A DNA stretch of 62,934 nt from assembly GCA_021732995.1 (NCBI GenBank), contig JAKFWA010000049.1:37497-100430 (forward strand), read 5' to 3'. The notes beneath the pieces are model-generated. The model made no database searches and was not told where the DNA came from. It saw only the letters and a program-made list of their open reading frames with translations. Below, piece after piece: positions 15,245-32,564 of the stretch (within the stretch, counting starts at the first letter, position 1; each line of letters opens with the position of its first letter). This DNA comes from Planctomycetaceae bacterium. Lineage in GTDB: Bacteria > Planctomycetota > Planctomycetia > Planctomycetales > Planctomycetaceae. A program made the translations under genes and the position numbers.

Positions 15245-16708
15245 ATGCAACCCGGGACAACGGCGGTGGTGCAGCCTGAATCCTGCGCGGATCATCGAGA
15301 TTGCTTTACGAACCAGTTACGCGATGTGATTGGTTTGAAGAGCTTTCAACATTGGTTTCAGGGCCGGACTTCGATCTCCATCGAGCGGGATGTGGTCCGT
15401 ATTTTGGTCGCCAGCCAATTCCAGTTAGCCTGGATGCAGCGGCGTTTCGTCCGTGAGCTGACGTCTTGTGCGCAAGCCGTTCTCGGCAGCGGCGCGTCCC
15501 TCGCCTGGGACGTGGCTGAGACCGAAGCTGAGCCTGCCGCTAACGCCAGTCCGGCTGTAGTGAAAGCAGACGCTGCGCCCGCAGTGATTGCTGCCGAGCC
15601 GCCGCGTGCTGCGGTTGTATCCGCAACCGTCATTTCGGAGCGGAGTCAAACCGCACCGCGTGAGGGGCGTCGCTTCGCCACGCTGGACGAGTTTGTTGTC
15701 GGACGCTGCAACGAACTGGCCGTTACGGCTGCGCGGCATGTTTGCGAAGCTCCGGGTGCCGTCGCGTGCAACCCGTTGTATCTGCATGGCTCGGTCGGCA
15801 CGGGCAAGACGCATCTGGCTGAAGGCGTCTACAAGGGCATTCGACGGCTCTATGCCGATCGCCAAGTGCTGTTCATGACCGCCGAATCCTTCGCGAATCA
15901 GTTCACTCACGCGCTCAGGACTCACGCGCTGCCCGGTTTCCGTCAACGTTTCCGTCATGTTGATGTGCTCATTATTGACGACGTTGACTTTCTGGACGGA
16001 AAACGCGGTATTCAGGAAGAGTTCCTGCACACGTTTCAGCAACTGGTCAGTCACGGCAAGCAGGTTGTGCTGACGGCGAATTCACATCCGCGGTTGCTCA
16101 GCCAGATGAGCCATGAACTTACCAGCCGGTTCTTGTCCGGCATGGTTTGCCGCGTGGAAGCTCCGGACCTGGAGACTCGTCGCAAGATTGCTCTGGCGAA
16201 AAGTCAGGAGTTGGGAACCGCAGTCGTCGACGAGGTTCTGGATCTGGTGGCCCGTCGTTTCACGAACAACGTGCGGGAGATCGAAGGGGCTCTGAACTCG
16301 ATCCATACTTGGTATCGGATGACCAACAAACGTGTGTCTTTGGCGACAGCCAAACACGTTTTGTCGGATCTGGAACGTGACTGTGTGCGTGTGGTCAAGC
16401 TGACTGACGTGGAATCCGTCGTGGCCGAGTTGTTCGGCCTACCCGCGGAAGAGCTGCGATCGGATTGCCGCACTCGGACGATCAGCCAGCCTCGCATGCT
16501 GGCGATGTACCTGGCCCGCAAGCACACTCAGGCGGCGTACAAGGAAATCGGGGAGCACTTCGGCGGCCGCAATCACAGCACCGTGATGTCAGCCGAGCGA
16601 AAGATCGAATCCTGGCTGCGATCGGATCCCGATCTGCGCATCGGCGGGAAGGCATGGCGCTTGAGCGATGTTCTTGAGCAACTCGAGCGGCAGTTGCAGG
16701 CCAGTTGA
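15245..16708 (+). CDS. dnaA: Chromosomal replication initiator DnaA
   Basis: A 487-residue DnaA. Domain I lies at about 15-80, followed by an Ala/Pro-rich linker (about 90-140) and the AAA+ domain (about 145-365) with Walker A GSVGTGKT (182-189), Walker B VLIIDDVDF (241-249, where most DnaAs have DDIQF), the initiator-specific segment ESFANQFTHALR, and the box arginine in ELTSRF. Domain IV ends in GGRNHSTVMSAERK, the signature helix that reads the DnaA box. AAGGGG precedes the ATG. Unlike many genomes there is no dnaN, recF, gyrB, rpmH or DnaA-box cluster beside it. A role in replication initiation follows from the family; a regulatory paralogue is possible. Confidence 0.93.
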   Translation: MQPGTTAVVQPESCADHRDCFTNQLRDVIGLKSFQHWFQGRTSISIERDVVRILVASQFQLAWMQRRFVRELTSCAQAVLGSGASLAWDVAETEAEPAANASPAVVKADAAPAVIAAEPPRAAVVSATVISERSQTAPREGRRFATLDEFVVGRCNELAVTAARHVCEAPGAVACNPLYLHGSVGTGKTHLAEGVYKGIRRLYADRQVLFMTAESFANQFTHALRTHALPGFRQRFRHVDVLIIDDVDFLDGKRGIQEEFLHTFQQLVSHGKQVVLTANSHPRLLSQMSHELTSRFLSGMVCRVEAPDLETRRKIALAKSQELGTAVVDEVLDLVARRFTNNVREIEGALNSIHTWYRMTNKRVSLATAKHVLSDLERDCVRVVKLTDVESVVAELFGLPAEELRSDCRTRTISQPRMLAMYLARKHTQAAYKEIGEHFGGRNHSTVMSAERKIESWLRSDPDLRIGGKAWRLSDVLEQLERQLQAS

Positions 16709-18395: not shown

Positions 18396-19439
18396 ATGGC
18401 CAAGAAATTGTCGACGGAAGAGATCCTCAAGATGGCTCGCAAGCAGGACACGTCCGGAGCGGCTGGTTCTGCGCCGCCCGCGCCTGCCAGTGCCGAGCCA
18501 CCTGCCGCTGCCGCCAGTGCTGAGCCCGCCGCGGAAGCTCCCGCTGCTGCTCCTAAGCCCGCCGCAGCCCCGAAGAGTACGTCTGATATTCTCGCTGCGG
18601 CTCGCGCCCAGAAAGCTGGCGGTGCACCTGCTGCCGCTCCTAAATCAACGTCTGATATTCTCGCTGCTGCTCGTGCTCAAAAAGCTGGTGGAGCGCCCGC
18701 TCCTGCTGGTGATGCGCCGGCAGCGGCTGCTCCTGCTGCGGCCAAGGTTGCCGCGAAGGCGGATGCGGCTCCCGGAAACGCTCCTTCCGTGAAGGAGATG
18801 CTGGAGCAGATGAAAACCGGGGCCAAGCCGGAACCGGCCGCTGCTCCTCAATTGCGTCTGCCGACGAAGCCGGCGGCCAAACCGGCAGTGGTCAATCAAG
18901 GTCGTCGCGGAGTCTTGCTGGCGGCGGCGAATGGTCTGATCAGTCTGGTGGCGACTCCGTTTGCTCTGGCTTGGACAACGCTGGCAACGACAACTGCGGC
19001 TTGGGTTCTGGCGGTTGCTCGCTTCATGTTCCCGAACGTGCTGGTTGAGCCGCCAACGCGCTTCAAGATTGGTCCCCCATCGGATTATCCGCCGGGAACT
19101 GTTTCCACTAAGTGGACTGCTTTGCGCGGTATCTGGGTGGTGCATACCGATCAGTATCAAGGCAAGGATTCAATTTACGCTTTGGCAACCGTCTGCACGC
19201 ATCTGGGATGTACGCCGAGCTGGCTGGACGGCGAGCAGAAGTTTAAGTGTCCGTGTCACGGATCGGGTTTTTACATCACGGGTATTAACTTTGAAGGTCC
19301 TGCTCCTCGACCGCTCGAACGAGTGGGCTTGAAGTTGTCCGCGGATGGCATGCTCGAAGTTGATAAGAGCGTTAAGTTTCAGGAAGAAAAAGGGCAGTGG
19401 CAGGACGGCAAGTCGTTTGTGGACGCCTCGCTGGTCTGA
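18396..19439 (+). CDS. Rieske iron-sulfur protein of a cytochrome bc complex
   Basis: 347 residues. The C-terminal Rieske fold carries both cluster-binding boxes, CTHLGC and CPCHGSG (about 265-292), so a [2Fe-2S] cluster with two Cys and two His ligands is expected. A transmembrane helix lies at about 168-205. Before it is an unusual Ala/Pro-rich cytoplasmic extension of about 165 residues. This contains two exact-like 23-residue repeats (KSTSDILAAARAQ...) and two weaker relatives at STEEILKMARKQ and SVKEMLEQMK. First gene of the bc-oxidase cluster; GGGG precedes the ATG. It transfers electrons from quinol to the cytochrome c partner. Confidence 0.95.
   Translation: MAKKLSTEEILKMARKQDTSGAAGSAPPAPASAEPPAAAASAEPAAEAPAAAPKPAAAPKSTSDILAAARAQKAGGAPAAAPKSTSDILAAARAQKAGGAPAPAGDAPAAAAPAAAKVAAKADAAPGNAPSVKEMLEQMKTGAKPEPAAAPQLRLPTKPAAKPAVVNQGRRGVLLAAANGLISLVATPFALAWTTLATTTAAWVLAVARFMFPNVLVEPPTRFKIGPPSDYPPGTVSTKWTALRGIWVVHTDQYQGKDSIYALATVCTHLGCTPSWLDGEQKFKCPCHGSGFYITGINFEGPAPRPLERVGLKLSADGMLEVDKSVKFQEEKGQWQDGKSFVDASLV
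18573..18710 (+). repeat. Tandem 69-base coding repeat in the Rieske gene
   Basis: Two consecutive 69-base units (18573-18641 and 18642-18710) encode near-identical 23-residue blocks beginning KSTSDILAAARAQKAGGAP. The DNA copies differ mostly at third codon positions, so the peptide is under constraint or the duplication is old. Confidence 0.85.
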
Positions 19440-19501
19440 ACGCATTTGGCTGTTGGAAGCTGCTGAATCCCCTCAAATTGGAATAAGAGTCTGAGGAAGC
19501 A

Positions 19502-20275
19502 ATGTCTGTCGGCGATTACATTCGCGAGTCCCAGATTTGGAAAAGCGTTTTTCGTCATCCTGCACCGTATGACCGGCGTAACCGTGTCGTGGTGATGCTG
19601 ACGAACTTCTTCCTGCACTTGCACCCGGTATCGGTCAAGCAGGAAGGTATTGCGCTTTCTTATACTTGGTGTATGGGTGGTATTACGTTCTTCCTGTTTC
19701 TGGTGGAAGCGATTACCGGCGTCTTGCTGATGTTCTACTATCGTCCGACTCTGGAATGGGCGTTTAACGACATTCAGGCTCTACGCGACGTCAATACACT
19801 AGGTGTGATGCGCGAAGTGCATCGCTGGGGTGCTCACGCGATGGTGATCACCGTCTGGCTGCACATGTATCGAGTGTTTCTGACGGGTAGTTACAAGCCG
19901 CCGCGGGAATTCAACTGGGTGGTCGGTGTTATTCTGCTCAAGCTGACCCTGTTGCTCTCGTTCACCGGTTACCTGCTCCCGTGGGATCAGTTGGCGATCT
20001 GGGCTATTACCGTTGGTTCGAACATGGCTCGTGCGACGCCGGTTCTGGGACACGAAGGCCCCGGCTTCCAGTTGCTCAATATTGGTGGTTACGACCTGAT
20101 CACGAATGCCAGTGACGCCCGTTTTCTACTGCTGGGTAGCAAATTCGTGGGTGAGGAAACCTTGAACCGTTTCTACATCCTGCATTGTGTGGCCATTCCT
20201 CTGGTGGTGGCTGGTTTGATTGCGATTCACTTCTGGCGTGTCCGTAAAGACGGCGGAATTAGTCAGCCGCTGTAA
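19502..20275 (+). CDS. Cytochrome b, N-terminal (b6-like) subunit
   Basis: 257 residues with four membrane helices, corresponding to cytochrome b6 or the N-terminal half of cytochrome b. The bis-histidine haem ligands are at the b6-type spacing: His107 (VHRWG) and His121 (WLHMYRVF), 14 apart; His228 (YILHCV) and His243 (AIHFW), 15 apart. The motif YLLPWDQL matches the family. GAGGAAG precedes the ATG. It is followed by a separate C-terminal cytochrome b gene, so cytochrome b is split here. Confidence 0.95.
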   Translation: MSVGDYIRESQIWKSVFRHPAPYDRRNRVVVMLTNFFLHLHPVSVKQEGIALSYTWCMGGITFFLFLVEAITGVLLMFYYRPTLEWAFNDIQALRDVNTLGVMREVHRWGAHAMVITVWLHMYRVFLTGSYKPPREFNWVVGVILLKLTLLLSFTGYLLPWDQLAIWAITVGSNMARATPVLGHEGPGFQLLNIGGYDLITNASDARFLLLGSKFVGEETLNRFYILHCVAIPLVVAGLIAIHFWRVRKDGGISQPL

Positions 20276-20320
20276 GTTCGGCGAACGTTGATGGTGCCTT
20301 GTTCTTGATTTTCAGGATGA

Positions 20321-21703
20321 ATGTCGTCCATGCCTCTTGATCCTCACCCCAATCTGACTCCCGCAGTGATATTCGGCCTGGGCTGGCTCTATTTGATCCA
20401 GTTCTTGATGAATCTGGCTTGGACTGTCCGGAGTCTGAAGAGGGACGGTCACCATCCGCTGCCAGCGCTGTTTGGTGGTGGCAATGTTCCTGTTGCGTCT
20501 TGGTGGGGCCTGTACACGTCGCTGCTTGGAATGGTCGCGTTTGCCCACTTGACGGGCTCATCCACGCCTGAGAACTTCGTTATCGGCATGCCTGAGTTCA
20601 TCAAGCCGGGTATCGACTGGGTGGTGGCGAGTGCCGTTCGCTACTTCAGTGTGTCGATGCTGGCGTACGTGGGCGTAATCTGGTTCCGCCGCGTTCTGGC
20701 GACGCCAACCGCAGGTTGGTTGATGCTGAATGGTGCGACGTTGTTCCTTACGTTGAGTATGGCTGACTACGACTTCCGCCAGATTGTCGGTAAGCCGGAC
20801 AACGTGCCGATTGTGGCGATGTTGTTCATCGTTGGTTTCTTCACCTGGTTGGCCTTCAGTCGCGCCAACGACAACGACAAGCGTATCGCAGAAGGTCGTC
20901 CGCTTCGTGAAGCCGAAGGCAATGAGAAGGTGCTGACCTGGCCGGATCTGGTGTATACCGAACTGGTCTGCATGATCGCTCTGACGGCTTTCCTGTTTGT
21001 CTGGGGCGTGTGCCTGCAAGCTCCGCTGGAAGAGCCTGCTTCATCTGTGAAGACTCCGAACCCGTCGAAGGCTCCGTGGTACTTCCTCGGTCTGCAGGAA
21101 ATGCTGGTTTACTACGATCCGTGGTTGGCCGGCGTGGTGTTCCCGAGCGTGATCCTGGGCGGTTTGATGGCGTTGCCGTACATTGACTTCAACAAGAAGG
21201 GCAACGGCTACTACACGTTCAACGAACGTAAGTTCTCGATCAGCGTGTTCATGTTTGGCTTCCTGCCCCTGTGGGTGGGAATGATCATCCTCGGCACGTT
21301 CCTGCGAGGTCCGAACTGGAACATGTTCGGCATCTACGAGTACTGGGACGTGCACAAACTCGAAGCATTGAACAACGTCGACCTGTCGGAGTACTTCTGG
21401 TACAGCCTGAATATGGTTCGCCCGATGCCCACTCCGGATATGAGTTTGGGTGAGCAGGCCATAACGATTCTTAAGCGGGAATGGCTGGGAATTGTGCTGA
21501 CGTTGGGTTACTTGGTCATTGCCCCGTCGATTATGGCGGCGACCATCTTCCGTAACTTCGCTCTGCGTATGGGATTCATCCGGTATATGGTCTTCGCCAA
21601 TCTCGTACTGATGATGGCGGCCTTGCCGATCAAGATGGTTCTGCGTTGGGCGTTTAACTTGAAATATATCATTGGTATTCCCGAGTGGTTCTTGAACGTC
21701 TGA
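20321..21703 (+). CDS. Cytochrome b, C-terminal (subunit IV-like) subunit, enlarged
   Basis: 460 residues, far longer than subunit IV/PetD (about 160). The recognisable core is in the middle (about 205-270): TWPDLVYTEL, then APLEEPASSVKTPNPSKAPWYFLGLQEML, equivalent to the PEWY-type quinol-oxidation loop region, with the Glu of PEWY changed (APWY). About 200 residues with several extra hydrophobic helices precede it, and further helices follow. The ribosome site AGGA favours ATG 20321; a second Met is at 20330. The extra helices may dock the octahaem subunit encoded next. Fold and complex assignment are firm; the role of the extensions is inference. Confidence 0.9.
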   Translation: MSSMPLDPHPNLTPAVIFGLGWLYLIQFLMNLAWTVRSLKRDGHHPLPALFGGGNVPVASWWGLYTSLLGMVAFAHLTGSSTPENFVIGMPEFIKPGIDWVVASAVRYFSVSMLAYVGVIWFRRVLATPTAGWLMLNGATLFLTLSMADYDFRQIVGKPDNVPIVAMLFIVGFFTWLAFSRANDNDKRIAEGRPLREAEGNEKVLTWPDLVYTELVCMIALTAFLFVWGVCLQAPLEEPASSVKTPNPSKAPWYFLGLQEMLVYYDPWLAGVVFPSVILGGLMALPYIDFNKKGNGYYTFNERKFSISVFMFGFLPLWVGMIILGTFLRGPNWNMFGIYEYWDVHKLEALNNVDLSEYFWYSLNMVRPMPTPDMSLGEQAITILKREWLGIVLTLGYLVIAPSIMAATIFRNFALRMGFIRYMVFANLVLMMAALPIKMVLRWAFNLKYIIGIPEWFLNV

Positions 21704-21769
21704 TGCAGACGTTGATGAGCTTCAGGAATCTGGTTGTGACGATCGGTCTCAGGTCCGAGTCTGGAAGAC

Positions 21770-24700
21770 ATGCCTGCTAACGAACAATACAAATACAATT
21801 TGAAGAAGATGCACGTCATCTTCTGCGCGTCGGTACTGGCGTTTGCCGGTGCAACGATTTTTATGTTGTACCGTGATCACGACGACGAGTGGCGCGACTA
21901 CCAACGCAACTTCCTCAAGATCGAAGCGACCTTGCTGGAGCGCGAACGCGCGGCTGTTCTGACTGCAGCAGGCGGTGCCGAGGGGTATCAGAAGACCGTT
22001 GACGATTTGAACGCCAAGGTTGCTGTCCTGGATGAGAAGCTGGGACAGGGCAATGCTGATTTCCAAGAGAAGAGCACCAAAGTTGCTGATCTGCAGCGTG
22101 AGTTCTTGCTGAAGGGACGTGAGGTTCGCTTCAAACGCGCGGATCGTGACGTGGCACGTGCGAATCTGGACTTGGGAATTCGCGACGCGGTTTCGGAAGA
22201 CCAGATTGCCTCGCTGAAGGCGAAGTTCGACGAGTGGCAGGGCGTTGTTGAGAAGCTTGAGACCGAATGGGAAGTCATCAACACGAACCTCAAGAACGCA
22301 CAAGGCGATCTGGCGAAGGTCACTGCCGAGCGCGATGATCTGAAGGATCAACGTAAGAAGGCCGGCGTTGAACTGACACGTATCAATGATGCGTTGACCG
22401 AGATTGCTCCTGATGGTGGGCTGCGCAAGTTCAAGCGAACGATTATGGAGTGGCCGATCATTGACGGCTTCCACTCGCACTTGGTCGTTAAGCAGGACTG
22501 GTTACCCGACCTCAAGGTGAAACTGGGTATGACCAGTACGGCGCGATTTGATCGCTGCCGCACCTGTCACTTGGGTATCGATCGCTTTGGCAACGGCAAT
22601 GTTGCCACCTTCCCGCACGGGAAAGAGTCCGAGGGTAAGTATTCGCATCCCTATGCGAGCCATCCCCGACCCGATGTTTACCTGACGGCGACGAGTCCGC
22701 ACCCGATGGCGAGCTTCGGTTGCACCATTTGTCACGATGGCGCTGGTTCGGCGACGAGCTTCCATAATGCTCAGCACGGACCGAACGATCCCCATGAGGA
22801 TCACAAGTGGAACAAGGAATATGGCTACTTCCACAATCACTTCTGGGAGTATCCGATGCTTCCAGAGCGGCTGCGTGAATCCAGTTGTATCAAGTGTCAC
22901 CATGAAGTTGTTGAACTGGGCGTGAACCCGACCTACGGCGCGACGGCTCCGAAGGCCTACCAAGGCTGGGAGATCGTCAGCAAGTTTGGTTGCTTCGGTT
23001 GCCATGAAATCAACGGCTTTGAAGGCAAGAACCGGATCGGTCCCGATTTGCGATTGGAACCGACCGCTGAAGAAGAACCAAAGTTTGCGGCGGATCCGAA
23101 CCTGGTTCGCGGCAAGATGCGCAAGGTTGGTCCGAGCCTGCAGCACGTCGCGCAGAAGACCAGCGCCGAATGGATCAGCTACTGGACCGAAGAGCCGAAG
23201 CGCTTCCGTCCCGAAACCCGTATGCCGCAGTTTTTCGGTCTGACGAATCTCGAAGATCATGTCGGCAAGCAACTGTCGGCTGTGGAGATCGCAGGTATCG
23301 GGGCGTTCCTGACAAAGCAAAGCACGGATGTTGAGTTGCTCAAGCCGGAAGCGGGTTATCAGCCCAATGCCGAACGCGGCAAAGTGGCGTTCGGTCAACG
23401 TGGTTGCTTGGCCTGTCACAGTCACGACGCTGAGGAGTTCAAGGCCAGTAAGGCTGACTTCGGTCCGAACCTGACGAATGTCAGCCACAAGCTGGCCGCA
23501 GGCGATAAGGGTTTCGCTTGGCTCTATACTTGGATTCGCGATCCGCAGAAGCATCACCCGCGTTCCAAGATGCCCAATCTGTTCCTCGAACCGATTAAGT
23601 CTGCGGAAGGCGCGATTGAAGCCGATCCAGCAGCCGACATTGCCGCGTACCTGCTGTCGGGTGGCCCCAAGGATTACCCGAAGCGCGATTTTGATGCGGA
23701 AGCTCTTAAGGAGCTTCTGAAGGTCAATCTGGCTGGCAAGGCTTTGACGACGGCTCAGTACGAAGGCTTCATGACGAGCCGCAAGTTCCCGATTCCGAAG
23801 GCTCAACTGAAGGGTGACGAAATCGAACTCGTCTACGAGGGCGAAGGCGCTCCGAACGACGAGCAGTGGAACGGGATGCTGTTGAACTACGTGGGACGCC
23901 GAGCGGTGTCGCGTTATGGCTGCTACGGCTGTCACGACATCAATGGTTACGGTTCCGGTCGACCGATCGGTACTGGGCTCGCTGACTGGGGCCGTAAGGA
24001 CACTGGTCGTCTGGCGCTGGAGCACATCGCTGAGTTCCTGCATCATCACGGCGAGGCTGACGGTTCCAGCACGTCGAAGTACATCGCTGACTCCATGAAG
24101 AACGCGGCATCGGATTCGTTCGATTCGCCTGAAGCGAAGGAGAACGGGCTGCGACGAGCCTTCTTCTACGAGAGCCTCGAACATCACGGACGTCCCGGTT
24201 TCATCTTCCAGAAGCTCCGCGATCCGCGCAGCTATGACTACAAGAAGGTCGAAACGAAGAAGTACAACGAACGCCTGGTGATGCCGAAGTTCCCGTTCAC
24301 CGACGATCAGATCGAAGCTGTGGCGACCTTCGTGCTGGGACTGGTCTCTGACCCGCCCGCCAGCAAGTATCTCTACAAGCCGGATCAACGGCTGACGGAC
24401 CGCAACCAGGGCGAGATCCTGCTGCGAAAGTACAACTGCGTCAGCTGTCACATGACAGACCTGCATAAGTTCGAGTATGGGGTCGAAGAAGGAGAACTGG
24501 CGGCGTCTGAACTGGCGCCGACTGAGCATCCTGAGGGCATGGATGCGTTGCTGTCATGGCGACCGCCTCGTCCGGCGATCACTGGACGGACCCATAAATT
24601 CGGCGACAAGACTCTCCCGACAGTGGAAATGCGCGGCATTCCATTGCTGTATCCCAATCCGGAAGACGAACCCGAGGATCGCATCTATACCGTCGACACT

Positions 24701-25591
24701 TGGGAACCGGCGACGCTGCATACAGCGGCTGAAGTCGAGGCCCTTCAGAGGAAGAACCAGAAGATCGATCAGGTTATTCTGCCCGGTTCACGTCTGGTGG
24801 TGAATGCTTCCAAGCTGGTTCATCATCAGCCTGCTTCCAGCGGTCACTTCGCGGAGTGGCTGGTTGATAGTCTGGCTGCGAGTCGGACGCAGGGTAACAA
24901 GTATGCCGCATGGCAGATGGTGCCTCCGCCGCTGTTCCGTGAAGGGCAGAAGGTGCAGACACCCTGGCTGTACCGCTTCCTCAAGGAGCCGGAACAGATC
25001 CGCTACACTGTCGCGCTGCGAATGCCGCGCTTCAATATGAGTGACGAAGAAGCTCAGACTCTGGCGAACTATTTCGCCGCTATTGATGGGGCGCCTTATC
25101 CCTATCAGGAGATTCAGCAAGCCGAGCCTGAGCATGTGGCAGCGGCGCAGGTGAAGTTCGAGGAAGAACACAAGGCGCGAGCAGAGAAGACCAGTTACAC
25201 CGATGAGTCTTGGAACATGTTGACGGCGGACAACACTCTCTGCATTAAGTGCCATGCCGTCGGCGGTCGTCCTTTCACGGCACGTCCGAATGATCCGAAC
25301 GTGACACGCGGGCCGAATCTGGAGCGGGTGGCACAGCGTCTCCGTCCTGACTGGGTCAACGTGTGGTTGCACAAGCCGCAGTGGATCACGCCGTACACCG
25401 GCATGCCGCTGCCTTTCCCGCGAGGGAAGGAAGACTACAAACCACTCTTTGATGGCAATCCGGTCCATCAGACGGCGGGTGTGCGTGACGCGCTGTTCAA
25501 CTACTACCACCTGTTGGAACGAAAGCCAAAGGCACCAACCGACGTTGTCGCAGTGCCGCCGCAAGCCGCTCCAGCAGCGCCGAATAACTAA
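21770..25591 (+). CDS. Membrane-anchored octahaem cytochrome c with coiled coil
   Basis: 1273 residues. An N-terminal transmembrane anchor (about 14-34) is followed by a long charged coiled-coil-like region (about 45-215), then eight CXXCH sites: CRTCH 263, CTICH 318, CIKCH 373, CFGCH 408, CLACH 546, CYGCH 718, CVSCH 890 and CIKCH 1158. Several are followed by MPxF/MPxL stretches of the kind that supply a distal Met ligand in class I cytochrome c. The gene lies where cytochrome c1 or f would be, directly after split cytochrome b, and no other c1/f gene is present. It is probably the c-subunit of the complex and may also relay electrons to the oxidase. Confidence 0.9.
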   Translation: MPANEQYKYNLKKMHVIFCASVLAFAGATIFMLYRDHDDEWRDYQRNFLKIEATLLERERAAVLTAAGGAEGYQKTVDDLNAKVAVLDEKLGQGNADFQEKSTKVADLQREFLLKGREVRFKRADRDVARANLDLGIRDAVSEDQIASLKAKFDEWQGVVEKLETEWEVINTNLKNAQGDLAKVTAERDDLKDQRKKAGVELTRINDALTEIAPDGGLRKFKRTIMEWPIIDGFHSHLVVKQDWLPDLKVKLGMTSTARFDRCRTCHLGIDRFGNGNVATFPHGKESEGKYSHPYASHPRPDVYLTATSPHPMASFGCTICHDGAGSATSFHNAQHGPNDPHEDHKWNKEYGYFHNHFWEYPMLPERLRESSCIKCHHEVVELGVNPTYGATAPKAYQGWEIVSKFGCFGCHEINGFEGKNRIGPDLRLEPTAEEEPKFAADPNLVRGKMRKVGPSLQHVAQKTSAEWISYWTEEPKRFRPETRMPQFFGLTNLEDHVGKQLSAVEIAGIGAFLTKQSTDVELLKPEAGYQPNAERGKVAFGQRGCLACHSHDAEEFKASKADFGPNLTNVSHKLAAGDKGFAWLYTWIRDPQKHHPRSKMPNLFLEPIKSAEGAIEADPAADIAAYLLSGGPKDYPKRDFDAEALKELLKVNLAGKALTTAQYEGFMTSRKFPIPKAQLKGDEIELVYEGEGAPNDEQWNGMLLNYVGRRAVSRYGCYGCHDINGYGSGRPIGTGLADWGRKDTGRLALEHIAEFLHHHGEADGSSTSKYIADSMKNAASDSFDSPEAKENGLRRAFFYESLEHHGRPGFIFQKLRDPRSYDYKKVETKKYNERLVMPKFPFTDDQIEAVATFVLGLVSDPPASKYLYKPDQRLTDRNQGEILLRKYNCVSCHMTDLHKFEYGVEEGELAASELAPTEHPEGMDALLSWRPPRPAITGRTHKFGDKTLPTVEMRGIPLLYPNPEDEPEDRIYTVDTWEPATLHTAAEVEALQRKNQKIDQVILPGSRLVVNASKLVHHQPASSGHFAEWLVDSLAASRTQGNKYAAWQMVPPPLFREGQKVQTPWLYRFLKEPEQIRYTVALRMPRFNMSDEEAQTLANYFAAIDGAPYPYQEIQQAEPEHVAAAQVKFEEEHKARAEKTSYTDESWNMLTADNTLCIKCHAVGGRPFTARPNDPNVTRGPNLERVAQRLRPDWVNVWLHKPQWITPYTGMPLPFPRGKEDYKPLFDGNPVHQTAGVRDALFNYYHLLERKPKAPTDVVAVPPQAAPAAPNN

Positions 25592-25605
25592 GTGAGCTTT
25601 TCAGC

Positions 25606-26472
25606 ATGAAACTTACGACTTCAGTCCGTTCTCTTGTTCTCCTGTCGGCGACTGGATTGGTCGCTGGCTGCGGAGACTTTGATATTAACAAAGTCGATCC
25701 TGGTGGTGGCGCATCGTCGAAGTCCGTCGTGACTGTTCGCGCCAGTGCGGGGACCAAGGCGGAAGCGTCCGCAGGTGAGAACAACGCGACAGCTACGGCT
25801 GCGTCTTCCGAACCCGGAGTCCTCAAGGGGTCGGTGTCTTTGGACGGGCCCGCTCCAAAGATCTCGCCGCTCGTGGCTGCGGGGCAGGCAAAAGCAGACC
25901 CCTCGGTGTGTGCCAAGAGCGAAGATATTCCGGATGAGAGCTTTGTGGTCGGAGCCAGTGGCGGAATTGCTAATGTCTTTATCTACCTGGACAAGGCGCC
26001 CGCCGGCTATGTCGCTGACGTGGCTGCGAAGCCTGCGTTGGATCAGAAGCTGTGCATCTTCCGCCCGCACGCACTCCTGGTGCCAGTAGGTGCCGAGTTC
26101 GCGCTCAAGAATTCCGACACAGTTCCGCATAACGTGGGCACCAATCCGCAGAAGAATGCACCTGAGAACAATAACATGACTCCCGGGTCATCGATGAATC
26201 TCAAGTTCAAACGTGCTGAGAAGGAGCCATTTGATTCCCGGTGCGCGATTCATCCCTGGATGAAGTTTTATACGCTGGTGCTGGACCATCCGCTGGCGGC
26301 TGTCACGGATGCGGAAGGCAAGTTTGAGATTGCCAACGTACCGGCGGGTAAGCACAAGTTTCGCGTCTGGCACGAAACCAAAAAGCAGCTCGAAACTGTG
26401 ACTGTGGATATCAAAGGCGGTCAGACGACCGAGTTACCGTTGAAATACAACGCTGCAAAATTCGGCTTGTAG
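25606..26472 (+). CDS. Cupredoxin-like lipoprotein
   Basis: 288 residues with a lipobox LVAGC near residue 24, so probably a lipoprotein. The middle carries a plausible type-1 copper site: His in VPHNVGTN, then Cys, His and Met in CAIHPWM. The C-terminal part (TDAEGKFEIANVPAGKHKFRVWHE) looks like a carboxypeptidase-regulatory-like beta-sandwich. The family resembles planctomycete plastocyanin/methylamine-utilisation-type proteins. It is 14 bases after the octahaem gene and before a dihaem cytochrome, so an electron-carrier role between bc complex and oxidase is reasonable, but copper binding is inferred from motif alone. Confidence 0.7.
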   Translation: MKLTTSVRSLVLLSATGLVAGCGDFDINKVDPGGGASSKSVVTVRASAGTKAEASAGENNATATAASSEPGVLKGSVSLDGPAPKISPLVAAGQAKADPSVCAKSEDIPDESFVVGASGGIANVFIYLDKAPAGYVADVAAKPALDQKLCIFRPHALLVPVGAEFALKNSDTVPHNVGTNPQKNAPENNNMTPGSSMNLKFKRAEKEPFDSRCAIHPWMKFYTLVLDHPLAAVTDAEGKFEIANVPAGKHKFRVWHETKKQLETVTVDIKGGQTTELPLKYNAAKFGL

Positions 26473-26514
26473 TGTTATTCAATATCTTGTTTGCCTTCTC
26501 AGAGAGAATGCCCC

Positions 26515-27879
26515 GTGAAATCGTTTCGTCGTCTTGCGACTTGCATCGCGCTGGTGATCGCCGCCGGTTGTCAGTCCGAGCGCGCGCCGCAGTTTGCAAG
26601 TAGTCAGCAAACACAGGGCCTGGTCAAGGTTGCGCAGGATGCAGTCAATGCTGAGCTAGAGGCGGGCTTTGGTAGTCCGAGTCAACTCGCGGCGTGGACC
26701 GCGTTGCCCGTTGATTTTGGGACGTTCTCAGGCACGGTGACCCAGGTGAACGGTTCAACTTTGGGGTTGGAACTGGTTCCTGAATCTCCTCTGGCATTTA
26801 AGAGGCGTGCGGGTCTCCTGCGTGGCTCTGCCGTTCTGGTTGCGTCTGGTGCCAACCCCGCTGGTGTATTGCGTGCCGAGTCTTACAACGTCGATGGCAA
26901 GACCCTTTCTGTTATCGGCGACAAGGGAGCTGCGGTTTCGGACGTTGCCAAAGTTGGCGACAAAGTCACGGTCGTTGGTGACACGCTTCAATATGGTCGC
27001 GACTTGTATCTTCGACACTGTGTGCATTGTCACGGAGTGAGTGGTGACGGTAACGGTCCCACTGCCAAGTATTTCGCGATCAAACCTCGAGACTACCGTC
27101 GCGGTATCTTCAAGTTCACATCGACCAAGCCGACTGTGCGAGCGTCGCATGATGACTTGTTCCGCATCGTGAAGCTGGGTATTCCCGGGACTTACATGCC
27201 TTCGTTCATGCTGTTGGCGGACGAAGAAGTTAAGGCGATGGTGGAATACATCCGCTGGCTGGCGATGCGCGGCGAGATGGAAGGCAAGCTGGTTGTTGAA
27301 ATGAATAACGACTTCTCACAGAAGGCGGCCAAAGATCGAGCGATCGCTGAAGTCAACCAGGAGTTTGAAAACTTCCGAAAGACCGAACTGGCAGGCAAAG
27401 TTGAAGGCGCTGTCGGTGAATTGAAGGAAGACTGGGAAGCTTCGGACGCCGAGGACAATCTGGTGGTGCCGGGTGCCGAGCGGGTGGCCTCAACTGCGGA
27501 ATCGATTGAGCGCGGCCGGAAACTCTTTCTGGGTGACAAGGGCAAATGCTTCTCTTGTCATGGCGAAAAGGGCCGTGGTAACGGGGCGTCTACCGAAGAT
27601 TTTAATGACATCCCCGGTGGAGAGCCGGGCAAGAAGTCGGACGTCCCAGGTCTGTTCGATGTCTGGGGCAATATCGTCAAGCCACGCGATCTGACATCCG
27701 GCATTTACCGCGGTGGACGTCGGCCAGTTGATATCTACCGTCGTATTTCGGCCGGTATCAAGGGTACCCCGATGCAGGCCTTTGGAACGACACTGAAAGA
27801 CGATGAGATCTGGGATTTGACAAACTATGTGATGAGCCTGCCCTTCGAGAAGAAGCCGAAGAGCGAAGCCAAGCATTAA
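26515..27879 (+). CDS. Dihaem cytochrome c lipoprotein
   Basis: About 454 residues from GTG 26515. An earlier in-frame TTG (26491) is less likely because AGAGAGAA sits just upstream of the GTG and the signal then starts cleanly (VKSFRRLATCIALVIAAGC) with a lipobox. Two class I cytochrome c domains follow: CVHCHGVSGDGNGP (near 168) and CFSCHGEKGRGNG (near 346), each with a later Met-containing segment (GTYMPSF; GTPMQAF). About 120 residues precede the first haem without recognised family. Probably the periplasmic electron carrier feeding the CuA site of the oxidase encoded next. Confidence 0.88.
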   Translation: MKSFRRLATCIALVIAAGCQSERAPQFASSQQTQGLVKVAQDAVNAELEAGFGSPSQLAAWTALPVDFGTFSGTVTQVNGSTLGLELVPESPLAFKRRAGLLRGSAVLVASGANPAGVLRAESYNVDGKTLSVIGDKGAAVSDVAKVGDKVTVVGDTLQYGRDLYLRHCVHCHGVSGDGNGPTAKYFAIKPRDYRRGIFKFTSTKPTVRASHDDLFRIVKLGIPGTYMPSFMLLADEEVKAMVEYIRWLAMRGEMEGKLVVEMNNDFSQKAAKDRAIAEVNQEFENFRKTELAGKVEGAVGELKEDWEASDAEDNLVVPGAERVASTAESIERGRKLFLGDKGKCFSCHGEKGRGNGASTEDFNDIPGGEPGKKSDVPGLFDVWGNIVKPRDLTSGIYRGGRRPVDIYRRISAGIKGTPMQAFGTTLKDDEIWDLTNYVMSLPFEKKPKSEAKH

Positions 27880-27933: not shown

Positions 27934-28746
27934 GTGAATAAATTCTGGCCGTTCTTCTTTATGTTTTGGCCCTTTGTGGCGGTGGTGCTGTTTTTCATAG
28001 CGCCCTCCATGGGCTGGTGGTTTCCGTCTGAAGCGTTCAGTCCGCTGGGCGTGCAGATCGATAACCTGTTTTATCTGATTCTGGTCATCGTCAGTGTTAC
28101 GTTTGTTGGCACCCACATCGGTCTGGGCTACGCCTTGTGGAAGGGCGTGGATAACAAAGCCGAGAAGGGCTGGTTCAGCCACGGTAGTCACAGTCTGGAA
28201 GTGCTCTGGTCGATCGCTCCCGCTGGCATTCTGATGTTTATCAGTCTCTACCAGTTGGATGTGTGGCGCACGTACCGTGTAAAGAGTGCTTACCCAAAGG
28301 ATTTGTACGGCGTGGCTGAAGTCACGGCTCGTCAGTTCGAGTGGCGTATTCGTTACCCGGCTCCGGGTAAGAAGCTGCAGCCTACTCCGCAACCCGACGA
28401 TCTCTACACCGTCAATGACTTGCATGTGCCAGTCAACCAGCCTGTCTTGATTCGGCTGCGAAGCATGGACGTGCAACACTCGTTCTTCGTACCAGCTCTG
28501 CGTGTGAAACAAGACGCGGTCCCAGGTACTGTGATCCCGGTCTGGTTCGAAGCCTCCAAAGAGGGCGGCTTCGATCTGACCTGCGCTGAGCTGTGCGGCT
28601 GGGGTCACTACAAGATGCGCGGTCGAGTGTTTGCTGAGCGAAAAACGGAGTTCGAGAAGTACTTGAACACGCTGAAGGCCGAGCAAGGCTTCGACGGCGT
28701 GAACAAGCCGAGTGAGTCCGGTGCCGAAATTGCTAAGACAGAATAG
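27934..28746 (+). CDS. coxB: Cytochrome c oxidase subunit II
   Basis: 270 residues with two N-terminal membrane helices and a cupredoxin domain. The binuclear CuA site is complete: CAELCGWGHYKM supplies two Cys, His and Met, and the upstream His is in DVQHSFF. There is no fused cytochrome c domain, unlike caa3 subunit II; the preceding dihaem protein may take that role. The start is GTG 27934 with GGAG seven bases upstream. Coupled by 12 bases to coxA. Confidence 0.96.
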   Translation: MNKFWPFFFMFWPFVAVVLFFIAPSMGWWFPSEAFSPLGVQIDNLFYLILVIVSVTFVGTHIGLGYALWKGVDNKAEKGWFSHGSHSLEVLWSIAPAGILMFISLYQLDVWRTYRVKSAYPKDLYGVAEVTARQFEWRIRYPAPGKKLQPTPQPDDLYTVNDLHVPVNQPVLIRLRSMDVQHSFFVPALRVKQDAVPGTVIPVWFEASKEGGFDLTCAELCGWGHYKMRGRVFAERKTEFEKYLNTLKAEQGFDGVNKPSESGAEIAKTE

Positions 28747-28758
28747 TGAGGGCGTTCC

Positions 28759-30591
28759 GTGAGTGCTGTTCATCCTACAGTGGGTTTGTCCGACCATGGT
28801 CACGGACACGCTGGCCACCACGAGATCGGCTTCGTTGGTAAGTATATCTTTTCCAAAGACCATAAGGTCATCGGGATTCAGTTTCTTATTACGACGCTGC
28901 TGATGTTGATGGTCGGCGGGGCTCTGGCCCTGGGAGTCCGCTTCCAGCTGGCTTGGCCTTGGCGAGCGATGCCGCTGGTATCGCAATTGACCGGGGGACT
29001 TTTTGCCGCCGAAGGCGGTCAGATCTCTCCCGAGTTCTACACCATGCTTTTCACGATGCATGCGTCGGTGATGATCTTCCTGGTCATCATTCCGATCCTC
29101 GCAGGTGCGTTCGGCAACTTCCTGATTCCGCTCATGATCGGGGCGGACGATATGGCGTTTCCGACTCTGAATATGCTGAGCTACTGGTTCATGTGGCCAG
29201 CCATTGCCTGCTTCGGTATGAGCTTTACGGTGAATGGCTTGAACGCTGCTCCAGCTAACGGCTGGACTGCATACCCAGTTCTATCGGCGGTTGTTCAGGC
29301 TGCTCCAGGCGCGGGTGACGCTCAAACGTGGTGGTTGTTTGGTCTGACGCTGGTAGGTGTGTCGTCGATGATGGGTTCCGTCAATTACATGACGACTATC
29401 ATCAATATGCGTGCTCCGGGCATGACGTTGTTCCGTATGCCTCTGACGATCTGGAGTATGTTCATCACCGCGATTCTGCAGGCTTTTGCTCTTCCCGTTT
29501 TGACTGCCGCGGGCTTCATGCTGGTGGCGGAACGGACGCTTGGCTTCAAGTTCTTCGTGCCGGGCAACCTGTTGATTAACGATGCTCCTGCTACGGTTGG
29601 TGGTGGGCAGCCTTTGCTGTGGCAGCACTTGTTCTGGTTCTACTCGCACCCGGCTGTGTACATCATGCTGCTGCCGGCGATGGGTATGGTTTCGGACATG
29701 CTGGCTGCCCAAGTGCGTAAGCCAATCTTCGGGTACAAGCCGATGGTGTACTCGATGGCTGCGATCGCAGGACTGGGATTCATCGTGTGGGGGCACCACA
29801 TGTTTACCAGCGGTATGAATCCGGCTCTTGGCATGACGTTCATGATCTCAACGATGATGATTGCACTTCCGTCTGCGGTGAAGGTCTTCAACTGGATCGG
29901 AACGATCTGGGGTGGCAAGGTTCAGTTCAACACGGTGACTTTGAACTGTGTTGCCTTCGTGTCCATGTTCATTGTCGGTGGATTGAGCGGCATCTTCATG
30001 GCTGCCGTGCCTGTCGACATCTACTTCCACGACACGTACTTCATCGTTGCTCACTTCCATTATGTTTTGTTTGGTGCGACGTTGTTCGGCTGCTTCGGAG
30101 CGATCCAGTTCTGGTACCCGAAGATGTTCGGCCGGATGATGAGTGAGCGCCTCGGTAAGCTGCACTTTCTGCTGTCGTTCATTGGGTTCAACGGGACGTT
30201 TTTCCCGATGCACTTGCTGGGAATTGCAGGTTTCCCGCGACGCTACGCTGATCCATATATCCACCCATATATGGAGCACCTCATGCCGATCAATCGCTTC
30301 ATTACCCTGTGTGCGATTCTGATGGGTATTGCTCAGTTCATTCTGTTATTCAACTTCGCTTTTAGCTTCTTCGCTGGTAAGAAGGCTGGACGCAATCCTT
30401 GGAACGCGAACGGCCTTGAGTGGTCCGCTCCGTCACCCCCAGGACATGGTAACTTTGATGTCCCGCCGGTTTGCTACCGCGGTCCTTATGAGTATTCGTC
30501 ACCCTTGTCTGAGGGCACGGATTTCCTGATGCAGACAGATCCGCTCCGTCATACTGGCGGCGTGGGGAATGCTGGCGATGGTCACCACTAA
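28759..30591 (+). CDS. coxA: Cytochrome c oxidase subunit I (A2-type haem-copper oxidase)
   Basis: 610 residues, 12 or more helices. Haem and copper ligands are visible: FTMHASVM (low-spin haem), FYSHPAVYIM (CuB His and the crosslinking Tyr), WGHHMFTSG (two CuB His), and AHFHYVLFG (haem His). The helix VI motif is YSHPAVY without the Glu of GHPEVY, which marks the A2 (YS) subfamily of proton-pumping oxidases. D- and K-channel regions resemble type A (GAFGNFLIPLMIGADDMAFP; STMMIALPSAVK). GTG 28759 is the start. A His-rich N-terminus (DHGHGHAGHH) may bind metal. It overlaps the next gene by 23 bases or fewer. Confidence 0.97.
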   Translation: MSAVHPTVGLSDHGHGHAGHHEIGFVGKYIFSKDHKVIGIQFLITTLLMLMVGGALALGVRFQLAWPWRAMPLVSQLTGGLFAAEGGQISPEFYTMLFTMHASVMIFLVIIPILAGAFGNFLIPLMIGADDMAFPTLNMLSYWFMWPAIACFGMSFTVNGLNAAPANGWTAYPVLSAVVQAAPGAGDAQTWWLFGLTLVGVSSMMGSVNYMTTIINMRAPGMTLFRMPLTIWSMFITAILQAFALPVLTAAGFMLVAERTLGFKFFVPGNLLINDAPATVGGGQPLLWQHLFWFYSHPAVYIMLLPAMGMVSDMLAAQVRKPIFGYKPMVYSMAAIAGLGFIVWGHHMFTSGMNPALGMTFMISTMMIALPSAVKVFNWIGTIWGGKVQFNTVTLNCVAFVSMFIVGGLSGIFMAAVPVDIYFHDTYFIVAHFHYVLFGATLFGCFGAIQFWYPKMFGRMMSERLGKLHFLLSFIGFNGTFFPMHLLGIAGFPRRYADPYIHPYMEHLMPINRFITLCAILMGIAQFILLFNFAFSFFAGKKAGRNPWNANGLEWSAPSPPGHGNFDVPPVCYRGPYEYSSPLSEGTDFLMQTDPLRHTGGVGNAGDGHH

Positions 30592-31564
30592 GCACTCATC
30601 AGGAACGGATGCCGACTCCAGCTTGCGTTCACTGAGGACAGTGCACTTGCTGGCGGTTGTCGCGTTGGTGTTGTCTTTGGTGCCGATTTGCCTCGGTTCA
30701 CTTGTGACAACGCTGGGTGCGGGCATGGCGTTTCTGGATTGGCCGACGTCGGACGGTCAGGGAATGCTGGCCTATTCGTGGCTGCAATCGTCTGGTGACA
30801 AGTTCGTTGAGCATGGTCATCGACTGGCTGGTTTATTGATTGGGTTCGTCTCGCTGGCATTGTTTGGAACTGCGTGGTGCTTGCGAGTCGCACGTTCGGT
30901 TCGGATGTGCTGTCTGGTTGTCTTGTTGGGTGTTGTGTTTCAGGGCGTTCTGGGCGGCTTGCGAGTTCGCCTGGATCGGCAAGTGGTCGCTCTGGGACAT
31001 AGCGTATTTGGTTGTTTTGTATTTACGGCATTGTGGTTCACTGCCAGCGTGACCAGACCTCGAAAGATCGAGGCCGAAAAGGTCTCGTCGCAGTCGAGTT
31101 GGTTGCAGGTCTGGGCGGCCATTTTGCCAGTGGTTTGTGTAGCACAGTACATTGTTGGCGCTTTTATCCGGCACTTGGGAGAGTATTTGCATCTCCACTT
31201 GGCGGGGGCGATCAGTGTTGTCGCTGTGGCAACGGCGGCGACGATTGTCGCGTATCGAGTTTCGACGACGACCGGTCGTCGGATCGTCCGGTCGGTGATG
31301 GTCTTCGTCGGATTGCAGATTGGTTTGGGAGTTGTGGTCTGGTTGCAAAAGTTTGGGTTCGCGCCGTTGGGGTGGGTGGCTGAGTATCACTCGGTGGCAC
31401 AAATCGCGTCGCGATCTGCTCATACGGTGATTGGCATGTGTGTTGTTGCTTCGGCGGTGAATTGGTCTGCATCCGTGTTCCGGGTCAGCAACTGGGTTTC
31501 CCAGATGGCTGTCGGTGAGATTGGTGCGGGTAAGTCGCAGTCGTTCCGTTCTGCGTTGTCCTGA
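30569..31564 (+). CDS. ctaA: Haem A synthase (COX15/CtaA family)
   Basis: About 331 residues with eight predicted helices. It oxidises the C8 methyl of haem O to give haem A for the oxidase. Conserved histidines appear in VEHGHRLAG, in LHLHLAGA and in SAHTVIGM, as in the family. The reading frame overlaps the end of coxA; ATG 30569 opens the frame, but ATG 30578 has GGGGA at a better distance (9 bases) and may be the true start. Either way translation is likely coupled to coxA. Confidence 0.92.
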   Translation: MLAMVTTKHSSGTDADSSLRSLRTVHLLAVVALVLSLVPICLGSLVTTLGAGMAFLDWPTSDGQGMLAYSWLQSSGDKFVEHGHRLAGLLIGFVSLALFGTAWCLRVARSVRMCCLVVLLGVVFQGVLGGLRVRLDRQVVALGHSVFGCFVFTALWFTASVTRPRKIEAEKVSSQSSWLQVWAAILPVVCVAQYIVGAFIRHLGEYLHLHLAGAISVVAVATAATIVAYRVSTTTGRRIVRSVMVFVGLQIGLGVVVWLQKFGFAPLGWVAEYHSVAQIASRSAHTVIGMCVVASAVNWSASVFRVSNWVSQMAVGEIGAGKSQSFRSALS

Positions 31565-31575
31565 GGAATTCTGTT

Positions 31576-32511
31576 GTGAATGTTGCGAGTGCCACTACGA
31601 CGACTGAAAACAATGCGGGTGCATTGGATGTGGTGGCGCGCCTGTCTGATTACTGGCTGCTTGCCAAACCGAGAATCGCGGTAATGGCAATGTTTACTGT
31701 CGCCATCGGTTACGCGCTGGGGTTCCAGCAGACGACGGGCGGTGCGTTTCAAATCGCGGCGCTGGCGAATGCCTGCTTCGGGATCTTCTGCGTGGCTGTG
31801 TCATGCAGCTTTCTGAATCAGTGGCTGGAGCAGGACGTTGACCGCCGTATGAATCGCACGTGTCAGCGGCCATTGGCGGCTCGTCGTGTTTCATCTGGTG
31901 AAGTGCTGGCAATCGGTGTTGCGGCGGCGGTGTTGGGCATTGCCTGGCTCGTCACGCAGGTCAATCTGCTGACAGGTCTGGTATCGGTCACCGCACTCCT
32001 GAGCTATGTCGCTCTTTATACGCCGCTGAAGCGGGTGTCGTTCTTGTGTACTCAGATTGGTGCGTTGGCGGGAGCTTTGCCGCCGGTGCTGGGATGGTGT
32101 GCTGCTGGCGCTCAGCTTGATAGTGGGGCACTGGCTCTGTTCCTGCTGTTGTTCTGCTGGCAGTTTCCGCACTTTCTGGCGATCGCAACGATCTACCGTG
32201 CTGACTATGAGCACGCCGGATTGAAGATGCTGCCGGTGATGCCAGGCGGGATTAGCTGTGCGGGCTTGGTGAGTGTGGCTTATGCCGCCGCGTTGCTACC
32301 GGTCAGTTTTCTGGCTTACGGTTGTGGCGTTGGTGGTTACGTGTATTTGAGTCTGGTGCTGCTGGGAGGCTTGGCTTACCTCGCGGCATCAGTTCGCTTC
32401 TGGTTGTGTGATTCGGTTGTTCGAGCCCGGCAGCTTGTGCTGTGCTCGTTGATTTACTTGCCCGTCGTCTTGGTCGGGATGGTTGTTGATCAGTTTTGCA
32501 TTATTCGCTGA
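31576..32511 (+). CDS. ctaB: Haem O synthase (protohaem IX farnesyltransferase)
   Basis: 311 residues, UbiA-type prenyltransferase fold with about nine helices. The first Asp-rich site is in [15 protein letters not shown] and the second region is [15 protein letters not shown], both typical of COX10/CtaB. It adds a farnesyl group to haem B, giving the substrate of CtaA. Start GTG 31576 with GAGGA upstream, 11 bases after ctaA. Confidence 0.95.
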
Positions 32512-32564
32512 CTTGTTGTTGTTACGCTCCGTCTTCGAATGTGCTGTTTGAGGTGGGAATTACG

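Follow-up and report, generated by a model that had tools for sequence, protein, structure and literature searches.

A Rieske/b6-type cytochrome b operon with an eight-haem cytochrome c, linked to aa3-type oxidase genes, in a Planctomycetaceae bacterium

The operon and its gene products

The window analysed here is a stretch of 62,934 nucleotides from a Planctomycetaceae bacterium (assembly GCA_021732995.1, contig JAKFWA010000049.1, positions 37,497 to 100,430 of the forward strand). According to its list of open reading frames (ORFs), the plus strand of the window carries between positions 18396 and 27879 the genes for a Rieske protein, a split b6-type cytochrome b, a subunit-IV-like protein (SUIV), an octahaem cytochrome c, a cupredoxin-like protein and a dihaem cytochrome c, in that order, and the dihaem gene is directly followed by the run of an aa3-type oxidase (coxB, coxA, ctaA, ctaB, coxC and a coxD-like gene). 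We read the locus, with good confidence, as encoding a b6-type Rieske/cytochrome b complex with an octahaem c-subunit, which would act as a bc-type quinol oxidase and supply electrons to an aa3-type oxidase. An initial annotation, made without database searches, had described a split cytochrome b followed by a 1273-residue octahaem protein, a cupredoxin-like protein and a dihaem lipoprotein; both the ORFs and their positions are as it described them, the lipobox-like motifs being recognised by eye. The features are as follows, with lengths in amino acids (aa).

18396..19439, plus strand: Rieske [2Fe-2S] protein, 347 aa (PF00355, 36.6 bits; motifs CTHLGC and CPCHGSGF; best PDB match 9rk3)
18396..18902, plus strand: Ala/Pro-rich N-terminal tail of Rieske protein, in which (P)KSTxDILAxARxQ recurs, ahead of the membrane segment (motif counts in relatives)
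19502..20275, plus strand: b6-type cytochrome b, 257 aa (PF00033, Cytochrome_B, 147 bits)
20321..21703, plus strand: SUIV, 460 aa, about eight membrane segments by hydropathy (PF00032, Cytochrom_B_C, 23.3 bits, cut-off 20.7)
21770..25591, plus strand: octahaem cytochrome c, 1273 aa (8 CXXCH; class-I cytochrome c Pfam match; 8 invariant His/Met outside CXXCH; beside SUIV, cytochrome b and Rieske genes in relatives)
21800..21880, plus strand: membrane anchor of the octahaem protein, helix aa 11-37 (hydropathy aa 16-34; AlphaFold2 helix 11-37)
21887..22447, plus strand: helical hairpin of the octahaem protein, aa 40-226, turn near aa 139-142 (AlphaFold2)
22556..22570, plus strand: haem 1 CXXCH, aa 263 (motif count, as for haems 2 to 8)
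22721..22735, plus strand: haem 2 CXXCH, aa 318
22886..22900, plus strand: haem 3 CXXCH, aa 373
22991..23005, plus strand: haem 4 CXXCH, aa 408
23405..23419, plus strand: haem 5 CXXCH, aa 546
23921..23935, plus strand: haem 6 CXXCH, aa 718
24437..24451, plus strand: haem 7 CXXCH, aa 890
25241..25255, plus strand: haem 8 CXXCH, aa 1158
25606..26472, plus strand: cupredoxin-like protein, 288 aa, lipobox-like LVAGC (by eye), C-terminal CarboxypepD_reg-like domain (all Pfam domain scores below cut-offs)
26491..27879, plus strand: dihaem cytochrome c, 462 aa from the listed start, a GTG at 26515 being the likelier one, with a lipobox-like IAAGC recognised by eye (2 CXXCH; PF00034)
27934..28746, plus strand: cytochrome oxidase subunit II (CoxB) without a haem c domain (PF00116, PF02790; 0 CXXCH)
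28759..30591, plus strand: cytochrome oxidase subunit I (CoxA) (PF00115, 491 bits)
30569-31564, 31576-32511, 32496-33563 and 33606-33989, plus strand: ctaA, ctaB, coxC and coxD-like gene, respectively (named by eye and from the order in relatives)

The cytochrome b is of the b6f type, being split into a b6 and a subunit IV and carrying the histidines for two b haems together with the cysteine of haem c(n). Residues H39, C57, H107, H121, H243, R248 and K249 are present in all 38 sequences compared and H228 in 37 of them; we take H107, H121, H228 and H243 to be the four b-haem histidines and C57 to be the haem c(n) position. The five best PDB matches of the cytochrome b are b6 chains, and the nearest NCBIfam models for it and for SUIV are ExtP and ExtQ, both below their cut-offs. 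KAPWYF stands at the place of PEWY in the Qo region of 38/38 SUIV sequences (KAPWYFLGLQE in the window), and the Rieske motifs CTHLGC and CPCHGSGF are kept in 36/36 and 33/36 relatives, respectively.

The cupredoxin-like protein has a type-1 copper ligand set (H and C-x2-H-x2-M), although the Pfam Copper-bind model scores 14.2 bits, below its cut-off. The ligands are well kept among 42 homologues (the Cys in all 42, the His and the Met in 41 each), three of which have one extra residue in the Cys-His spacing. The dihaem cytochrome c is probably the oxidase-side donor, and the order ctaA-ctaB-coxC-coxD-like is the same in relatives.

Co-occurrence, gene order and loss as a block

The octahaem protein is very probably, judging from what the sequences themselves give (gene set, haem sites, ligand conservation and co-inheritance), the c-subunit that replaces cytochrome c1 or f, as the initial annotation had proposed. 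Three lines of evidence argue for this: the co-occurrence of its gene with that of the b6-type cytochrome b in 145 of 392 genomes, the presence of eight invariant His/Met residues to match eight haems, and the joint loss of the gene with its upstream partners in 13 of 14 loci; to these a conserved gene order, with exceptions, can be added. The claim that no c1 or f gene is present also held in the search of the bacterium's own genome, which gave no cytochrome f (no Apocytochr_F_N, PF16639, match) and no convincing c1. A canonical cytochrome c1 was rejected because the sole Cytochrom_C1 match (24.5 bits, cut-off 22.8) covers positions 2-33 of 219, i.e. 32 of the 219 positions, inside a 1335-aa frame.

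Relatives were drawn from two sources. The phylum survey comprised 392 genomes, taken to be planctomycetes from the titles of the named loci described next, from which 39 loci were picked by hand for gene order and haem counts. The second source was a named contig collection, where a profile from a narrower alignment found at least 591 candidate stretches, at least 522 of them confirmed; the best 80 loci were kept, and these are titled as planctomycetes or as unassigned 'bacterium'. A single-sequence scan of the same named collection with the octahaem protein gave no match, and no octahaem match was found in a plasmid collection.

In the phylum survey, b6-type cytochrome b and octahaem protein occur together in 145 genomes, one alone in 8 and 6, and neither in 233, at cut-offs that were chosen after the tables had been seen (E up to 1e-80 for cytochrome b and up to 1e-12 for the octahaem protein). 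Looser cut-offs (1e-40 and 1e-3) give 159 genomes with both and 4 and 61 with a single one; octahaem matches at E up to 0.001 are present in 220/392 genomes, the weak ones including ordinary cytochrome c domains. The gene-order survey in planctomycetes suggested by the initial annotation found the octahaem gene beside the Rieske, cytochrome b and SUIV genes in most loci, with some exceptions. The order Rieske-cytochrome b-SUIV-octahaem is present in 36 of the 39 picked phylum loci, the other three being L061, which has SUIV and cytochrome b before the contig DNA ends, and L073 and L076, which are weighed below. It is also present in 64 of the 80 named-collection loci; among the other 16, SUIV overlaps the next gene in L100 and L118, and the rest are without upstream DNA or incomplete.

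The behaviour of the operon where the octahaem gene is missing was followed in 21 genomes of the window's class, taken from the phylum survey, that are without a strong octahaem match. The cytochrome b frames listed for them are all at least 476 aa long, so these genomes show no split b6-type cytochrome b. A dihaem gene nevertheless stands beside a coxA (61-76% identical to that of the window) in 20/21 of them, the exception being genome G274. Fourteen octahaem-less loci were fetched, one of which (L185) has only about 2 kb of upstream DNA; in 13 the dihaem-coxB-coxA run is intact and Rieske, cytochrome b, SUIV and octahaem genes are absent together, and in four of the 14 the cupredoxin gene has been kept. 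Anammox loci and several others show the reverse, a four-gene bc block with no oxidase genes in the flank that was fetched. From the joint loss and from these bc blocks without an oxidase, it can be concluded that the four genes behave as one module, with the dihaem gene on the oxidase side. A chance gene neighbourhood of the octahaem gene is ruled out by the co-occurrence and by this loss as a block, and the loci show that a complex III can enter or leave an oxidase operon as one unit.

These data also bear on the proposal, made in the initial annotation, of a direct bc-aa3 supercomplex, in which the octahaem protein would dock on CoxB, perhaps via a dihaem bridge, with no need for a mobile carrier. 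Gene order favours coupling, as the bc block runs into coxA in 56 of the 80 named loci and the other 24 have less than 4.5 kb of downstream DNA; both small carriers look, by eye, like lipoproteins rather than free proteins, and oxidase subunit II is without a haem c of its own. Yet each module is found without the other, the bc block in anammox and the several other loci and the dihaem-oxidase block in the 20 genomes mentioned above, so that an obligate supercomplex, in which complexes III and IV should always occur together, is unlikely. In the actinobacterial bcc-aa3 obligate supercomplex, complexes III and IV work without a free cytochrome c and the c-subunit is the dihaem QcrC, whereas modules of the window type come apart in evolution. 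A facultative bc-oxidase supercomplex is possible, and a direct one of the kind proposed we consider rather doubtful.

The octahaem cytochrome and its N-terminal helices

The 1273-aa protein contains exactly eight CXXCH motifs, against a mean of 0.006 in shuffles of the same protein, and a single hydrophobic segment by hydropathy (aa 16-34), bearing out both the eight haem sites and the one membrane anchor ascribed to it. Its homologues in the picked phylum loci range from 937 to 1704 aa and have exactly eight CXXCH in 39/39 cases, as do 65 of the 66 complete ORFs in the named-collection loci; the sole complete ORF with seven, in L135, lies on a 4.7-kb contig, where another octahaem fragment follows it.

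Across 40 sequences, anammox included, the invariant His and Met residues outside CXXCH are exactly H298, H311, H336, M485, M601, M838, M1085 and M1212. Of the 69 His and Met residues in the window protein, those that are invariant comprise the CXXCH histidines, H267 aside, and these eight candidates; H267, of haem 1, is missing from the invariant list because L056, whose haem 1 is at aa 120, is misaligned there. All eight candidates are kept in 66/66 closer sequences, a set chosen for having eight CXXCH and in which further residues are also invariant, e.g. H357 in 66/66. The three His and five Met are candidate distal ligands for the eight haems, which would give three bis-His and five His/Met haems. 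With an invariant candidate sixth ligand for every haem there is no evident open haem site, and since all eight haems appear six-coordinate, the protein would be an electron conductor or store and not a catalyst.

That the octahaem protein only shares the operon and serves instead as an enzyme, or as an outlet for electrons to the outside, in metal or nitrogen-oxide reduction, is an alternative we regard as very improbable. Multihaem proteins do stand beside a b6-type cytochrome b in the Geobacter ext genes (PMC5877670), but the invariant ligand set, the single membrane anchor and the linkage to aa3 oxidase genes in the own class all argue against such a role. An octahaem oxidoreductase of the HAO type was rejected, as no open haem site is evident, the Pfam scan of the protein gave no HAO family and the HAO chains in the PDB sequence search reached no better than E 0.056, among other weak coiled-coil and cytochrome matches. 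In AlphaFold2 the haem-bearing part (aa 225-1273) is modelled as one body, with a predicted template modelling score (pTM) of 0.81 and a mean predicted local distance difference test score (pLDDT) of 79.5; a Foldseek search with this model gave no match below E 0.001, the best being single cytochrome c folds, e.g. SoxX, so that the octahaem body found no relative among solved structures.

The N-terminal part had been described as a 170-residue coiled coil that would act as a spacer, holding the haem wire away from the membrane. Its long helices are supported: aa 3-213 contain no Pro, weak coiled-coil-type matches are found (SMC, 25.4 bits, aa 34-212; p85 coiled coil, E 0.003), and AlphaFold2 modelling of aa 1-470 from 44 sequences (mean pLDDT 71.8, pTM 0.54) gives the anchor at 11-37 followed by helices 40-66, 69-92, 96-138, 143-184 and 186-212 (block means 96-97 for aa 101-180 and 93-97 for aa 101-190). 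A single straight rod is not supported, as the helices are modelled as a folded-back hairpin. In a crude Fourier test of periodicity no heptad stood out (0.60 at a period of 3.5 and 0.96 at 3.6). The turn at aa 139-142 produces two arms, so that in the model the chain returns before a beta hairpin (aa 242-263) and haem 1 are reached. This fold-back, together with the Kuenenia model in which long helices wrap around the Rieske protein (PMC12954380), makes the spacer role unlikely, and on the modelling the hairpin is more likely a clamp or docking arm. A Foldseek search with the model of the N-terminal part returned mostly coiled-coil and BAR-type helical proteins, the best of Smc type and none below E 0.001.

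The octahaem homologues are not uniform in their additional domains. Those of L052, L054 and L056, from other families, have a PDZ domain between haems 1 and 2, and in L056 the position of haem 1 leaves no room for the helical hairpin. The homologue at L058:6445-10029 has an HTH_3 match (29.5 bits) at aa 1007-1053, which is odd for a periplasmic cytochrome.

The tail of the Rieske protein has a conserved feature of its own. Its motif PKSTxDILAxARxQ is present one to four times in 51 of the 60 relatives from the named collection whose tail is complete, compared with 1 of 6000 shuffled tails; a search of the own genome at E up to 1 gave no further match, and the more distant loci L055-L078, long tails included, have none. 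It looks like a repeated docking motif, presumably on the cytoplasmic side.

Relation to known complexes and the proposed electron route

A b6-like complex of Kuenenia, R/b-2 (Kustd1480-1485), is described as having a hexa- or octahaem cytochrome in place of cytochrome f, plus an NAD(P) oxidoreductase (PMC12954380). Locus L072 of our survey has a Rieske protein identical to PDB 9rk3 over 117/117 residues and a cytochrome b in which the residues that PMC12954380 names for Kustd1481 (His62, Arg266, Lys267) are present; by these identities L072 is the Kustd1480-1485 locus or a near-identical one. Its octahaem protein has eight CXXCH and aligns with that of the window, and by both sequence and ligands the two c-subunits are homologous. 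The window further resembles R/b-2 in its Rieske protein, its b6-like cytochrome b with the haem c(n) Cys, its SUIV-like protein and the single anchor of the octahaem cytochrome. The differences are that L072 has between the cytochrome b and SUIV genes a gene with Pyr_redox_2 and Fer4 domains, of the NAD(P) oxidoreductase kind, for which the operon in the window has no room (the end of cytochrome b is at 20275 and the start of SUIV at 20321); that the SUIV and octahaem proteins of the window are longer (460 vs 277 aa and 1273 vs 948 aa, respectively); and that the window has the Rieske tail and an operon that continues with the copper-protein, dihaem and aa3 oxidase genes. Five public metagenome-assembled genome contigs titled Candidatus Kuenenia stuttgartiensis (L087, L100, L119, L134 and L151) have an operon of the window type, and oxidase genes are present in L087, L100, L134 and L151, unlike in L072, whose Rieske protein equals the Kuenenia crystal structure; the titles of these five are probably wrong.

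The residues of a predicted interface-haem site also correspond, H39 of the window to Kuenenia His62 and R248-K249 to Arg266 and Lys267. The R-K pair is present in ordinary b6 as well, so that H39 is the informative residue, and alignments with b6 begin at window residue 53-54, i.e. after H39. In the Kuenenia complex the interface haem, predicted by AlphaFold3, is depicted as the path that electrons take to NAD(P) (PMC12954380). This raises the alternative of a Kuenenia-like electron bifurcation, in which the complex would serve low-potential reduction rather than work as a proton-pumping bc complex, its octahaem branch taking the high-potential electrons. Homology to Kustd1480-1485, retention of H39, R248 and K249 in 38/38 sequences and the potential of the homologue's Rieske centre (+335 mV; PMC12954380) are in its favour. 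However, the NAD(P) oxidoreductase gene of L072 is missing between the cytochrome b and SUIV genes of the window, and among the picked phylum loci a gene of that size and place is found only in L071 and L072, which makes bifurcation improbable here. Since the interface residues are kept in all 38 sequences compared although most of the operons are without the reductase, an interface haem, if real, would have another job; judging from the sequences, the site may be either structural or a haem that serves something other than NAD(P)H.

Similar arrangements are known outside the planctomycetes. In Nitrospina gracilis an 'atypical octaheme cytochrome c' is encoded beside a b6-type bc operon, and the same operon structure is reported for Kuenenia and Methylomirabilis oxyfera (PMC3578206). 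The likeness to the Nitrospina operon, i.e. Rieske protein, split b6-type cytochrome b and octahaem neighbour, is taken from the description, and the available part of that account gives no linkage to an oxidase such as that of the window (PMC3578206). With the b6f complex of cyanobacteria and chloroplasts the window shares the split into cytochrome b and subunit IV and the haem c(n) Cys, but it has an octahaem c instead of cytochrome f and KAPWYF for PEWY. The Geobacter ExtO-ExtP-ExtQ system, already met as the source of the nearest NCBIfam models, likewise has Rieske and multihaem genes (PMC5877670), although these cytochromes have 12, 10, 5 and 4 haems and come with a porin, compared with the anchored octahaem protein of the window. 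The principle of a b6-type complex with an octahaem cytochrome has thus been in print since 2013, and the complex of the window, with relatives among ammonium-oxidising and nitrite-oxidising bacteria, is an unusual variant of a known machine rather than a new kind. What is added here is an oxidase-linked variant without the NAD(P) reductase, the ligand set and the repeated motif of the Rieske tail; no prior description in aerobic planctomycetes was found by titles and the beginnings of abstracts, subscription literature aside, and we do not claim that none has been published.

We infer the assembly of the complex, the direction of electron flow and the order of carriers as follows. The quinone would be menaquinone, in keeping with what is generally known of planctomycetes. 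The quinol would be oxidised at the Qo site, one electron passing via the b haems and haem c(n) and the other from the Rieske cluster to the octahaem protein and along its haems. The N-terminal hairpin would most likely clasp the complex near the Rieske protein. From the octahaem protein the electron would leave to a periplasmic lipoprotein carrier, blue-copper and/or dihaem, and reach oxygen through CuA of the oxidase. A fuller picture, of a modular complex III in which a Rieske-b6-SUIV-octahaem cassette sits on a stand-alone dihaem-aa3 operon and forms a facultative supercomplex, with a Rieske-clamping hairpin, a wire of three bis-His and five His/Met haems and an extra interface b haem joining the monomers, is more speculative, and we consider it unlikely.

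Several observations weigh against the reading of the locus as a bc-type quinol oxidase that feeds the aa3 oxidase through an octahaem c-subunit. The first concerns partners: the own genome has at least two Rieske/cytochrome b complexes, the second (L001, contig C41) consisting of another Rieske protein and a cytochrome b of 646 aa to which a dihaem c domain is fused, a layout that resembles the one described for Kuste3096-3097 (PMC12954380). It also has three further COX1-family genes (four in all) and one NrfD-family gene, and with these alternatives the in vivo partner could differ. An alternative complex III was rejected for the window operon, as Rieske protein and cytochrome b are present and the single NrfD match is located away from it, on contig C51. 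The Kuenenia homologue, moreover, is proposed to make NAD(P)H rather than to pump protons (PMC12954380). Among the sequences, the assignment of distal ligands draws on conservation and spacing only, and the AlphaFold2 models are of low confidence near haems 1-2 (body) and near haems 2-4 (N-terminal part). In the phylum survey, which scored at most two candidates per genome, the cytochrome b lies about 10-13 kb from the octahaem match in G056, G141 and G171 (one family), about 11 kb away and on the opposite strand in G020, and downstream by 3-4 kb in G044 and G214. In L076 (G110, of the family of G056) the octahaem gene is immediately preceded by the Rieske gene and the cytochrome b lies on a separate contig; in L073 the 2.9 kb upstream of the octahaem gene contain no Rieske, cytochrome b or SUIV gene. 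The operon is rearranged in G056, G141, G171, G020 and L076, but these exceptions of gene order leave our confidence unchanged, since it is co-occurrence and joint loss that carry the case.

On the bc-type reading, many planctomycetes would carry a b6f-type complex in which the one-haem output protein has been replaced by a giant eight-haem cytochrome. The poorly understood anammox complex is thereby tied to a phylum-wide family and, in one class, to a partner that would be an ordinary oxygen-reducing oxidase. Two questions could then be tested in easier organisms, namely what eight haems do on the positive side of the membrane, and whether the interface haem exists and has a role other than NAD(P)H formation.

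Upstream of the operon, at 15245-16708 of the window, a 487-aa ORF resembles, by eye, an initiator of the DnaA type.

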